The notes beneath the pieces were generated by a model that ran no database searches, was not told the origin of the DNA, and was given only the letters and a program-made list of their open reading frames with translations. Of a DNA stretch of 64,000 nucleotides, positions 6,080 through 62,717 are shown one piece after another (position 1 is the first letter of the stretch; each line of letters opens with the position of its first letter). The position numbers and the translations under genes were made by a program. The DNA comes from Lachnospiraceae bacterium. Lineage in GTDB: Bacteria; Bacillota; Clostridia; Lachnospirales; Lachnospiraceae. The DNA lies in contig JAGAQJ010000022.1 in the NCBI GenBank assembly GCA_017622845.1, positions 26,364-90,363 of the forward strand, in the 5' to 3' direction.

Positions 6080-6425
6080 GTAACAGTTCAGCCGTATGGA
6101 TTATTTTAATCAGGACGAAGGTCGGCAGTCGTATGCCGCCCTTCTGTGTACTGACAACAGTTCGATTTTATGGTTTCACTGAACAGAAGACGGCAGATAG
6201 TATCCTGCAGGGTGCTTGGTGGAGAATGGTGATATTTCTTTATACGATGATACATGCAACAGGTTGGAGACGGAGGCATGGACGCCGACTCGAGCCGGCG
6301 CCGTTTTCATTAGAAAGCCTTGATTCATCGTATTAGGAAATTCCCATTTGAAACCAATGGCAGCCGGAGGGATACTATCTGCCGTTTTCGTCCGGATAGG
6401 AATGCATAAAAGGCTGAACTGTTAC
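6080..6425 (+). mobile_element. MITE-like element, family 1, long form, 8-bp target duplication
   Basis: The 346-bp segment begins GTAACAGTTCAGCC and ends with the exact complement GGCTGAACTGTTAC. It is flanked by a perfect 8-bp direct repeat ATAATCCG (6072-6079 and 6426-6433). The interior encodes no credible protein; a 67-codon ORF in it shares a motif (CVLTTV.FYGF.EQKTA) with another copy at about 22136-22190, which reflects the repeat itself. The last 140 bp recur in inverse orientation at 63861-64000. It lies just upstream of the tad promoter. It is a non-autonomous transposable element by structure; the transposase family is unknown. Confidence 0.85.
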
Positions 6426-14676: not shown

Positions 14677-14775
14677 AATTCGTCTGCTTTTGCAACGACG
14701 CAAAAAATGTATAATCCGACATCTTATGAATGGGCAGGGCTGAACTGTCACATATTGATAACAGTTTTGTAAAAG

Positions 14776-14908
14776 GTAATTGTTCAGTACAGCACTACGC
14801 ACTTGCTGCGGAGTGCGTGAGAATGTGTCAATTGCGTTAGGCATCAAGTCACCAAGAAGTGGTTTTGCATGACTTGATGACGTAACTATGAGGGTACTGA
14901 ATAGTTAC
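14776..14908 (+). mobile_element. MITE-like element, family 2, 8-bp target duplication
   Basis: The 133-bp element starts GTAATTGTTCAGTAC and ends GTACTGAATAGTTAC, imperfect inverted repeats, between exact 8-bp direct repeats TGTAAAAG (14768-14775 and 14909-14916). Inside are two hairpins: GCACT...AGTGC and CATCAAGTCA...TGACTTGATG (10-bp perfect arms). It lies inside the tad operon, 40 bp upstream of the second prepilin peptidase start. Other copies: 21506, 54087 and 62584. Confidence 0.88.
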
Positions 14909-14948
14909 TGTAAAAGAAAGATAGGATAGATAAGAAAGGAGTCATGAT

Positions 14949-15380: not shown

Positions 15381-15889
15381 ATATTTTCTTAAGGAAAAAG
15401 CTTTTCACATTATTCGCATTACAACGAAGAAGAGTCGGGCGTCATGATAAAAGATATGAAAGCGCATATTTTACTGTGGAAGCAGCGCTGATTTTTCCAA
15501 CGGTAATGCTTTTTACGGCAGTAATGATATTTTTGGCTTTTTACAGCTATGACAGGTGCATATTAGAGCATAGTGCATATGAGGCAGCGCTTAGAGGGAC
15601 AGGCAGTCATATCAAAACAGCCGAAGAAGCATATACACAGGCACGTACGGCAGCAGGCAGGCTTGTGGAAGAAAAGCTGTTTGCTGTAAAAGACTTTCAT
15701 TACAGTATCTCAGTAGAAGCCAATCATGTGACAGTAAGCTATCACTGTATTGTGAATATGCCTTTTGTCACATGGCTTACGGAATATGTATCTGATGTGG
15801 ATATGGCGCTTGATATCAGCCGAAGTGCAAACAGAAACCGACCGCCAAGAACGATTCGTGACTGCAGGATAATTAATAATGGAATATAA
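15368..15889 (+). CDS. TadE-like pseudopilin
   Basis: The ATG at 15368 lies inside the end of the prepilin peptidase gene. The 173-residue product has a basic leader (MRRINIFLRKK), then YFTVEAALIFPTVMLFTAVMIFLAF, the TadE-type class III signal and helix, then a conserved-looking extracytoplasmic part (ILEHSAYEAALRGTGS). It is likely processed by the adjacent peptidase and built into the pilus base or tip. The last 80 bp of the gene are the first of three tandem repeat units that continue into non-coding DNA (15810-16048). Confidence 0.83.
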   Translation: MRRINIFLRKKLFTLFALQRRRVGRHDKRYESAYFTVEAALIFPTVMLFTAVMIFLAFYSYDRCILEHSAYEAALRGTGSHIKTAEEAYTQARTAAGRLVEEKLFAVKDFHYSISVEANHVTVSYHCIVNMPFVTWLTEYVSDVDMALDISRSANRNRPPRTIRDCRIINNGI

Positions 15890-16048
15890 GCTGAATCTCA
15901 GCAAAAGCGCAGAAAAACCGACCACAAGAACAATACGCGGCAGCAGGAAAATAAAAAACGGAGGATAAGCTGAATCTCAGCAAAAGCGCAGAAAAACCGA
16001 CTGACAAGAACAATACGCGGCAGCAGGAAAATAAGTAATGGAGGATAA
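15810..16048 (+). repeat. Three tandem ~80-bp repeats at the 3' end of the TadE-like gene
   Basis: Units at about 15810-15889, 15890-15968 and 15969-16048. Units 2 and 3 are almost identical (shared GCTGAATCTCAGCAAAAGCG and AAGAACAATACGCGGCAGC). Unit 1, the coding end of the upstream gene, is a diverged version of the same sequence. Unit 3 supplies the AATGGAGGATAA ribosome-binding site of the FHA gene. The array looks like local duplication of a gene-end plus RBS. Confidence 0.85.
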
Positions 16049-21505: not shown

Positions 21506-21633
21506 GTAATTGTTCAGTACAGCACTACGCACTTGCTGCGGAGTGCGTGAGAATGCGTAAATTGCGCCAGGAATCAAGTCACCGAGAAGTGGTTTTGCAT
21601 GACTTGATGACGTAACTATAAGGATATAGTTAC
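21506..21633 (+). mobile_element. MITE-like element, family 2
   Basis: A copy of about 128 bp starting GTAATTGTTCAGTAC with the same interior as 14776-14908 and a slightly eroded right end (ATATAGTTAC). Flanks TATTTTTA and GATTTTTA match at 7 of 8 positions. It ends 5 bp from the stop of the TSCPD gene, so its hairpins would lie in that gene's 3' transcript. Confidence 0.82.
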
Positions 21634-21960: not shown

Positions 21961-22255
21961 GTAACTGTTCCGCACAGCACTTTGCATTTGCTGTAAAGTG
22001 CATGGAAAATACACACTTTGTCGGGTACATGCCTCCACGCAGCATTTTGTAAATTGAGGGTATCCGTAATGATATAAGTGGTGGAGCGTTATGCCGGCAA
22101 AGAAAAGGGATATCACAGGGAGCAGTTCGGTCTTATGGATTTGTGTACTGACAACTGTTGCGTTTTATGGTTTCAATGAGCAGAAAACGGCAGCCGGAGG
22201 GATACTATCTGCCGTTTTCGTCCGGATAGGAATGCATAAAAGGCTGAACTGTTAC
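21961..22255 (+). mobile_element. Chimeric or decayed MITE-like element (family 2 left end, family 1 right end)
   Basis: The left end GTAACTGTTCCGCACAGCAC with GCATTTGCTG matches the family 2 start; the right 70 bp (GGAGGGATACTATCTGCCG through GGCTGAACTGTTAC) match family 1 at 6360-6425. The middle (about 22136-22190) also matches family 1. No target duplication remains (GTCAATAA versus CATCACAG). It lies between the TSCPD gene and the nadA promoter. Confidence 0.65.
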
Positions 22256-52310: not shown

Positions 52311-52363
52311 ACGACTGCCGCCCTTCGTCCTGATTAAAATAATCCATAAGCCTGAAAGGTTAC
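52311..52363 (+). repeat. Truncated family 1 mobile-element end
   Basis: CTTCGTCCTGATTAAAATAA and TCCATAAG match the right part of the element at 61691-61790 and the complement of the left end at 6080; the terminus is eroded to CCTGAAAGGTTAC. No left end was found. Confidence 0.6.
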
Positions 52364-54086: not shown

Positions 54087-54219
54087 ATAATTGTTCAGTA
54101 CAGCGCTGCGCACTTGCTGCGGAGTGCGTGAGAATGCATCAAGTGCATTAGGCATCAAGTCACCACGAAGTGGTATTGCATGACTTGATGCTCGTAACTA
54201 TGGGTTACTGAATCGTTAC
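54087..54219 (+). mobile_element. MITE-like element, family 2
   Basis: A 133-bp copy with TTGTTCAGTACAGCGCTGCG at the left and TACTGAATCGTTAC at the right. Flanks GAAACAAC (54079-54086) and GAAACAAT (54220-54227) agree at 7 of 8 positions. The interior palindromes (GCACT...AGTGC; CATCAAGTCA...TGACTTGATG) are intact. It lies 109 bp upstream of the acetyltransferase start. Confidence 0.85.
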
Positions 54220-59800: not shown

Positions 59801-59850
59801 AAGAAGTCTATTTATTGACTGCCTCTCTTCGTCCTGTTCAAAATAAACCG

Positions 59851-59908
59851 CCAGACTGTTTTTTTCATAAAACCGATTCTGTGGACATACATTGAAATAA
59901 CAGTCTGG
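59851..59908 (+). other. Distant inverted repeat after the CdaR-type gene
   Basis: CCAGACTGTT (59851-59860, followed by TTTTT) and AACAGTCTGG (59899-59908) are perfect 10-bp complements with a 38-nt gap. It may act in termination. Just upstream, CTCTTCGTCCTGTTCAAAAT is weakly like the interior of family 1 elements. Confidence 0.4.
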
Positions 59909-61690: not shown

Positions 61691-61790
61691 GTAACCGTTC
61701 AGCCTTCCAGTTATTAACAGCCGGACGAAAACGGCAGATAACTGCTGCCTTTCGTCCTGGCTAAAATAATCCATAAGGTTGAACTGTTAC
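61691..61790 (+). mobile_element. MITE-like element, family 1, short form, 8-bp target duplication
   Basis: Exactly 100 bp from GTAACCGTTCAGCCTT to AAGGTTGAACTGTTAC, flanked by perfect 8-bp direct repeats TTTTTGAG (61683-61690 and 61791-61798). Nearly the whole element is palindromic (AGCCGGACGAAA...TTTCGTCCTGGCT), so it can fold into one long hairpin. It lies in the 5' flank of the nrdG-like gene. Confidence 0.9.
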
Positions 61791-61955: not shown

Positions 61956-62091
61956 GTAACCGTTTAGTCCAGAGGTTTGTACTTGTTGCAAAACTCGTTA
62001 GAAAACGCAGCGGCTGAAAGACTCAAGGCACCACAAGGTGGTTCTGCATGTCTTTCGTCCTGTAACAGAAAGCCGAAGGCTGAACTGTTTC
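61956..62091 (+). mobile_element. MITE-like element, chimeric family 1/2
   Basis: A 136-bp segment from GTAACCGTTTAGTCC to AAGGCTGAACTGTTTC. Flanks GAAGAGTG (61948-61955) and GATGAGTG (62092-62099) match at 7 of 8. The interior GGCACCACAAGGTGGTTCTG resembles the family 2 palindrome, while CTTTCGTCCT and the right end are family 1. It lies between a GATGGAGG RBS-like site and the nitroreductase remnant. Confidence 0.75.
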
Positions 62092-62583: not shown

Positions 62584-62717
62584 GTAATTGTTCAGTACAG
62601 CGCTGCGCACTTGCTGCGGAGTGCGTGAGAATGCGTAAATTGCGTGAGGTATCAAGTCACCGCGAAGTGGTTTTGCATGACTTGATGCTCGTAACGATGA
62701 GGGTACTGAATCGTTAC
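62584..62717 (+). mobile_element. MITE-like element, family 2, 8-bp target duplication
   Basis: A 134-bp copy from GTAATTGTTCAGTAC to GTACTGAATCGTTAC between exact 8-bp repeats AACATATC (62576-62583 and 62718-62725). Internal hairpins intact. Its right end is 43 bp before the ATG of the next gene, so it sits in or next to that gene's promoter. Confidence 0.92.

Follow-up and report, generated by a model that had tools for sequence, protein, structure and literature searches.

Four hairpin-forming repeats in a Lachnospiraceae genome probably belong to a miniature transposable element with IS66-type ends

Hairpin-forming repeats that lie between genes pose the question of whether they work as RNA in the transcripts that contain them or are mobile DNA that happens to be transcribed. 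The 64,000-nucleotide stretch of Lachnospiraceae DNA analysed here (the window) holds four such repeats, which a first-pass annotation had placed at 14776, 21506, 54087 and 62584. All four were confirmed at these coordinates and are the top four matches in the window to a covariance model (CM) of the element. We consider it probable (roughly 0.7) that they are copies of a non-autonomous MITE of about 134 bp, with a conserved palindromic core, whose movement depends on transposases of the IS66 family (those with GTWAC..TTCA ends) acting in trans. The copies in the window and the parts of the first are located as follows.

14776..14908, + strand: element copy 1, 133 bp, in a tad-type operon (CM 146.4 bits)
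14768..14775, no strand: left target duplication TGTAAAAG of copy 1, an exact match to 14909-14916
14909..14916, no strand: right target duplication TGTAAAAG of copy 1, exact
14792..14816, + strand: hairpin 1 of copy 1, with 10-bp arms, loop CTTGC and one purine-purine mismatch (from fold and covariation)
14842..14879, + strand: hairpin 3 of copy 1, with outer arms of 10-11 bp (from fold and covariation)
14882..14908, + strand: right-end unit of copy 1, 27 bp, GTAACTAT...ATAGTTAC, an alternative to terminus pairing
21506..21633, + strand: element copy 2, with a remodelled right end; flanks TATTTTTA and GATTTTTA, 7/8 (CM 111.4 bits)
54087..54219, + strand: element copy 3; flanks GAAACAAC and GAAACAAT, 7/8 (CM 131.2 bits)
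62584..62717, + strand: element copy 4; flanks AACATATC and AACATATC, exact (CM 145.9 bits)
61956..62091, + strand: older copy of a sister subfamily, right end GTAACAG..GAAGGCTGAACTGTTTC (CM 90.1 bits)
21961..22092, + strand: decayed relative of the element (CM 41.5 bits)

As the annotation had it, exact 8-bp duplications flank the copies at 14776 and 62584, and duplications matching at 7 of 8 positions flank those at 54087 and 21506. Its account of the ends needs some amendment. The inverted ends GTAAYNRTTCAGTAC are common to the copies and the start GTAAT stands for the others, but the copy at 54087 begins ATAAT, and the boundaries said to be common to all four are not kept by the copy at 21506, whose right end is shortened and remodelled (21506-21633). 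Both internal palindromes exist, the first of them imperfect through a conserved purine-purine mismatch. The settings are largely as described: the copy at 14776 lies between two genes of the tad-type operon, one without a Pfam match and one for a type IV leader peptidase that is followed by a TadE-like gene, and the copies at 54087 and 62584 each lie ahead of a + strand coding region. The copy at 21506 lies just past the stop of a TSCPD gene and is antisense to both neighbours, this gene and a murG-like one.

Further repeats occur in the window. Just ahead of copy 1, GGGCTGAACTGTCAC at 14737-14751 looks like what is left of a sister-subfamily right end, and downstream of copy 1 in the tad-type operon repeats spaced about 79-80 bp occupy 15845-16048. 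Another repeat family (6145-6425 and 22142-22255) shares the IS66-type terminus GGCTGAACTGTTAC and has a different interior; its copy at 6.1 kb carries an Rfam match to TwoAYGGAY RNA (6217-6356, 48.2 bits) within the inverted repeat CGGCAGATAGTATCC/GGATACTATCTGCCG, and this match splits blocks that are contiguous in the copy at 22 kb. A third family (ACTGCCGCCCTTCGTCCTG...) is found at 61741-61790, 52314-52363 and 59818-59867, with one copy ending GTTGAACTGTTAC.

Read from left to right, the element consists of an end box with TTCAG, hairpin 1, a partly conserved linker, hairpin 3 and the right-end unit. The terminal inverted repeats form 12 end pairs, with 90.2% of cells paired. Of 124 distinct sequences, 115 served for one parse of the interior and for the pair counts by class in hairpin 1; those set aside were four own copies whose ends are rearranged and further sequences that are too short or too long. 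Hairpin 1 has arms of 9-10 bp and a short loop, which reads CTTGC or TTTAC in 32 of the 49 genus and 23 of the 53 family representatives parsed; of the 32 own-class rows that have letters at its mismatch, 31 show A-G or G-G. Hairpin 3 mostly has outer arms of 10-11 bp, a short inner stem with a GAA triloop (31/37 own copies, 38/43 genus copies parsed, 32/54 family representatives) and an unpaired TTTTGCA on its 3' side (19/37 own and 29/43 genus copies). Some stretches were retrieved through an exact match to the hairpin-3 pattern, and these supply 34 of the 103 GAA triloops in the 115-sequence parse; in them, conservation of the triloop, the bulge and the outer stem follows from the retrieval itself.

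Besides the two palindromes there is a third hairpin, formed by the right end of the element. Of 54 family representatives, 52 have a right-end unit of 26-31 bp, with 27 and 30 as the commonest lengths; the end box, here in its third copy, opens the unit, and the right terminus closes it. The inner box matches the right terminus of its own element at a mean of 6.54 of 7 positions, against 5.48 after random exchange of termini between the 54 elements (0/1000 shuffles as high, under the same best-position rule). Five weak CM matches among the 91 from other genera described below are left out of the right-end-unit, parsing and other-genera orientation counts.

The genome to which the window belongs (3.6 Mb in 76 contigs) gives 41 blast matches to the element, and a 15-base end pattern allowing at most one mismatch occurs 65+72 times there, against 3+0 times for the reversed control. 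Among 44 near-full copies, a count from which a length filter on the right end excludes the copy at 21506, 16 have duplications of 8/8 and 10 of 7/8 (0.05% and 0.6% in a between-copy control), and 29 match at 6 or more of 8 positions (2.7% between copies). Exact duplications of 6, 7 or 9-12 bp were absent from these 44 copies; 8 bp alone is seen. At the operon junction occupied by copy 1, the upstream gene is present in 34 relatives, and 19 of these loci were compared. The element is absent from the junction in all 18 relatives in which both genes were found; in the nineteenth no homologue of the next gene turned up, and the 150 bp inspected there are without the element. One of the 19 loci, L305 from genome G004, does contain a copy, which scores 105 where the remaining 18 loci score 23-37; it lies at G004:C49:53525-53662, about 0.95 kb beyond the end of the upstream gene and away from this junction. 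The element has the features of a MITE: short, inverted-ended and multicopy, with a duplication of fixed 8-bp length, and absent at the one orthologous site tested.

Its distribution extends well beyond this genome. By blast, 27 of 38 genomes of the genus, which may be the one GTDB calls Acetatifactor, match the element, the window's genome included. The exact hairpin-3 pattern retrieved 97 stretches from a collection of named genomes; the carriers among the 80 of these listed are Lachnospiraceae bacteria and bins, two named Lachnospiraceae species, Mediterraneibacter agrestimuris and Hominisplanchenecus murintestinalis, and 'Bacterium 1xD42-87'. The cultured strain M. agrestimuris DSM 111629 accounts for 16 of these 80 loci. 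The covariance model, built from an alignment (A4) of 50 distinct copies in which six of 54 representatives were omitted and two window copies added, matches 64 of 397 sampled family genomes in 56 of 334 genera (window's genome included, at most eight matches scored per genome). Raising this limit to 150 gives 33 matches in G334, 45 in G403, 48 in G004 and 47 in G028. In other genera the model makes 91 matches in 84 loci, with duplications of 8/8 in 42 and of 7/8 in 21 (control 0.06% and 0.29%), that is 63/91 at 7-8 of 8 against 0.35%. Nearly every full match listed is about 130-148 bp long; in a core-match set of 81, 17 could not be delimited. Rfam gave no match on the window elements or in 18 loci of relatives, and among the matches listed from the open-licence literature no title or abstract opening describes the element.

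The annotation had proposed a covariance analysis of the stems, with an absence of compensatory changes to count against its reading. Such changes are present across subfamilies (122 and 143 cells in two structures, against 43 and 47 when shuffled) and hardly occur within the own class. With the ends, hairpin 1 and hairpin 3 as the structure, 92.5% of cells in alignment A4 are paired and 122 have changed on both sides, compared with 43.2 in shuffles (0/500 as high) and 16-32 when the structure is slid along the alignment; 16 pairs carry a both-side change, against 10.4 in shuffles (1/500 as high). When the right-end hairpin replaces the pairing of the ends, 93.0% of cells are paired and 143 changed on both sides (shuffles 47.4, slid 14-32), in 14 pairs against 9.5 (6/500). 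Relatedness is lost in the shuffle control. It is kept in the slid control, which is biased in favour of a structure derived from the sequences. Both-side changes in the hairpins separate subfamilies and are scarce within the own class: four such cells were found in 33 own-class copies (five own copies from other subfamilies being omitted) and 19 in 60 sister-class copies. With so few in the own class, the four window copies alone would not have revealed the covariation.

Covariation of this kind might be purely mutational, with replication template switching between the arms keeping the palindromes perfect and no selection on structure. Template switching can produce compensatory change (PMC8794818), the stems are nearly pure Watson-Crick, and in hairpin 1 of the sister class the both-side changes (11) outnumber the G-T plus A-C cells (8). 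In hairpin 1 of the own class, by contrast, 18 single-side changes (G-T plus A-C) stand against no both-side change, and the length and the unpaired loop, linker and bulge parts are kept across genera, for which correction between arms is insufficient by itself; we think this origin unlikely. We give much the same weight to the annotation's reading, by which the hairpins, once transcribed, would serve the host operon as RNA elements (in processing, stability or insulation) and be selected for doing so. What stands of it is that copies lie between genes, mostly in the same direction as those genes, and that their structure is conserved; the covariation between subfamilies and unpaired parts such as the GAA triloop, at the frequencies given above, would fit it as well. 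Strand-specific folding adds nothing beyond composition. Of 50 representatives, 41 fold better on the + strand, yet the strand difference is as large after shuffling (-5.4 against -5.6 kcal/mol; z difference p=0.13), so the better folding of this strand reflects composition, and we rejected the asymmetry as a sign of RNA. G-T exceeds A-C in the hairpins read on the + strand, by 37:23 in the own class (p=0.09) and 24:14 in the sister class (p=0.14), or 61:37 when pooled (nominal p=0.02, hairpins only, uncorrected for shared ancestry); hairpin parsing, which maximises Watson-Crick pairs and undercounts both kinds, gives 10:7 and 12:4. This is a weak lean of the + strand towards RNA, and C-to-T change on the coding strand of transcribed DNA would yield a G-T excess too. 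Against selection on RNA, about 3% of the paired cells in the two core hairpins (1 and 3) are G-U (29/978), compensated hairpin cells within the own class number the four already mentioned, and the four window copies adjoin unrelated genes.

Orientation seemed at first sight to favour the RNA reading more strongly. Copies co-directional with both neighbours outnumber antisense ones by 24 to 5 among 40 own copies, by 32 to 7 among 55 copies from named genomes and by 38 to 16 in other genera, or by 80:26 (75%) over all sets without duplicates, with neighbouring genes called as longest open frames, uncurated. The right ends of co-directional copies lie a median of 56 and 39 bp ahead of the next start in two sets, and one of 99 copies lies inside a long open frame. 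The target itself is asymmetric, however: purines occupy the first two bases of the duplication at frequencies of 0.70 and 0.65 in antisense copies (n=20), and of 0.77 and 0.74 in copies with divergent or convergent neighbours (n=31). These 31 copies carry no information on orientation. The motif that they yield, with background regions from the window and the exact-hairpin-3-pattern loci, predicts 61% co-directional copies from the duplication only (p=0.0009 for the excess), 72% when widened by 4 bases on either side (p=0.23) and 87% with 32 bases (p=1.0). Since target preference predicts 61-87% and 75% is seen, orientation neither shows nor excludes selection on RNA, and the 56:12 bias in own and named genomes was not counted as evidence for it; a motif learned from all copies is circular and was set aside. 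In two copies that were scanned there was no terminator-like site. Very improbable, finally, is a REP- or REPIN-like element moved by a tyrosine (RAYT) transposase. The element is likewise short, palindromic, intergenic, multicopy and hairpin-forming, yet it has paired inverted ends and clear target duplications, and REP and REPIN elements are not known to have target duplications. Like the element, REPINs are miniature mobile DNA with hairpins in ssDNA or mRNA (PMC3116915); they differ from it in being tied to RAYT transposases, whereas the element has 8-bp duplications and ends of IS66 type.

The trans-mobilised MITE that we prefer rests on these ends, GTWACNNTTCA[GC]. According to the IS66 literature, IS66 elements make 8-bp duplications and have typical ends GTAAGCG (PMC11946415), and their ends begin GTAA, or GTTA in one clade (PMC11946415, PMC12898284); within the ISBst12 group, ISDge4 is bounded by GTGACTACTCAGCA and GTAACTGCTCAGCA and shows a repeat of 8 bp (PMC12898284). 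The 8-bp duplication and GTAA-type start of the element agree with IS66. Identity extends over about 11-12 bp, against IS66 terminal repeats of 20-30 bp, and the typical GTAAGCG is unmatched. Within 1.5 kb of the genus loci no convincing paired IS66 ends were seen, only half sites at L108 and L110; wider flanks combined with a duplication test did find paired ends in genus loci. Six IS66 elements of the genus and family have 8/8 duplications, with ends GTTACTGTTCAC (L127, L137), GTTACTTTTCAC (L131, L136), GTTACAGTTCAC (L146) and GTTACCATTCAC (L143), all of the GTTAC..TTCAC type. Half sites GTAAC(T/A)(A/G)TTCAG adjoin IS66 genes or fragments at L151, L152, L108, L110 and L150/L155. The genes at L151 and L152 (481 and 487 aa, with L108 85% identical to L151) are each a single ORF, which suggests membership of the ISBst12 group. 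At L152 both ends are present (1824 bp), without a duplication (2/8). At L110 we also noted a stretch of 441 bp (483-923) with GTAACAGTTCAG inverted ends, a piece of an IS66 transposase gene and no duplication (3/8), possibly an IS66 deletion derivative.

Both IS66 end types occur around the same element core, with GTTACTGTTCAC ends in other genera (L347, L377, L358, L359). The three G334 elements listed have the left ends GTAACTACTCAGCA, GTAACTGTTCAGCA and GTATCTGCTCAGCA; in elements L431 (left end GTAACTACTCAGCA), L440 and L447 of this genome, hairpin 3 is larger and the ends are close to those given for ISDge4 of Deinococcus (PMC12898284). In genomes with both the element and IS66, the ends agree in the GTWACNNTTCA core only, so no exact IS66 partner has been identified, and 12 of 22 genomes picked for IS66 relatives give no element match. 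The core was absent from the interior of all 11 IS66 elements with both ends seen; four CM matches in 35 IS66 loci all lie outside these 11, and one relative of the element directly adjoins an IS66 (L136). In the draft of the window's genome no IS66 transposase was found with PF03050, with the L151 protein (E<=1e-10) or with profile A2 (E<=1e-40 only), and there is no same-ended IS66 partner there, the transposase search having covered the IS66 family. The failure to find an IS66 transposase in this genome and the location of the best-matched ends in other genomes count against mobilisation by IS66 in trans.

Right-end units also occur apart from whole elements. The window's genome has 75 with at most three mismatches (0 in the control), of which 29 were examined as possibly solitary; 25 of the 29 have no recognisable hairpin-3 start behind them, and several of these run on into the interiors of other subfamilies. 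Flanking duplications of at least 6/8 accompany 6 of the 25 (one 8/8, two 7/8 and three 6/8), whereas the control gives 1.3% at 6/8 and 0 at 7-8. Solo units of 27 bp that are flanked by target duplications do exist. They may have formed by deletion between the GTAAC boxes of the left end and the inner position, or the unit may itself be a minimal moving form. Whole elements also form head-to-tail arrays with identical 8-bp spacers (L373 1156-1535, L170 101-524).

Among described elements, the ISBst12 group of IS66 resembles the element in its ends GTAACTG..CAG, and ISDge4 has an 8-bp duplication and the end GTAACTGCTCAGCA (PMC12898284); unlike this group, the element is without a transposase gene, and its palindromic core is absent from the 11 two-ended IS66 elements. 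MITEPsy1 is likewise about 100 bp long, with inverted ends, a target duplication and no transposase, but its duplication is 4 nt, and ISPsy2, whose ends are almost the same, is its likely parent (PMC3189936). For our element no parent was found in the window's genome, and its internal structure is conserved across 56 genera. By description, bcr1-bcr3 of Bacillus cereus are also similar, being MITE-like and often located in UTRs and operons (PMC3446304).

We propose that an IS66-family transposase supplied in trans by another element recognises the ends. Its source may be the single-ORF ISBst12-like group or the GTTACTGTTCAC-ended group. The element would enter AT-rich intergenic sites with purines opening the duplication, leaving copies behind. 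Its core, comprising hairpins 1 and 3 with the partly conserved loop and linker, is retained, as is the right-end unit of 27-30 bp, while the outer ends switch between two IS66 types. We predict that the core is needed at the DNA level for mobilisation, through folding or protein binding; the weak G-T excess of 61:37 points away from such a role. The transcribed hairpins in operons would then be a tolerated by-product.

An ordinary MITE is a shrunken copy of its parent, whereas this element has a palindromic core of its own. Non-autonomous elements generally arise as by-products of a single parent and do not last long. A more tentative idea, to which we give clearly less weight than to trans-mobilisation in general, is that the element represents an independent lineage of structured mobile DNA, distributed across an entire bacterial family, with its core under selection, its ends swapped to suit whichever IS66 transposase is available and its right end of 27-30 bp self-mobile. 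If this is true, structure kept over 56 genera with ends tracking different transposases would mark a long-lived parasite of a transposase family. IS66 transposition is poorly characterised, and the element would provide a natural test of the use of folded DNA in it. Covariation and co-directional placement in operons, usually taken to indicate RNA function, can come from transposon structure and target preference.
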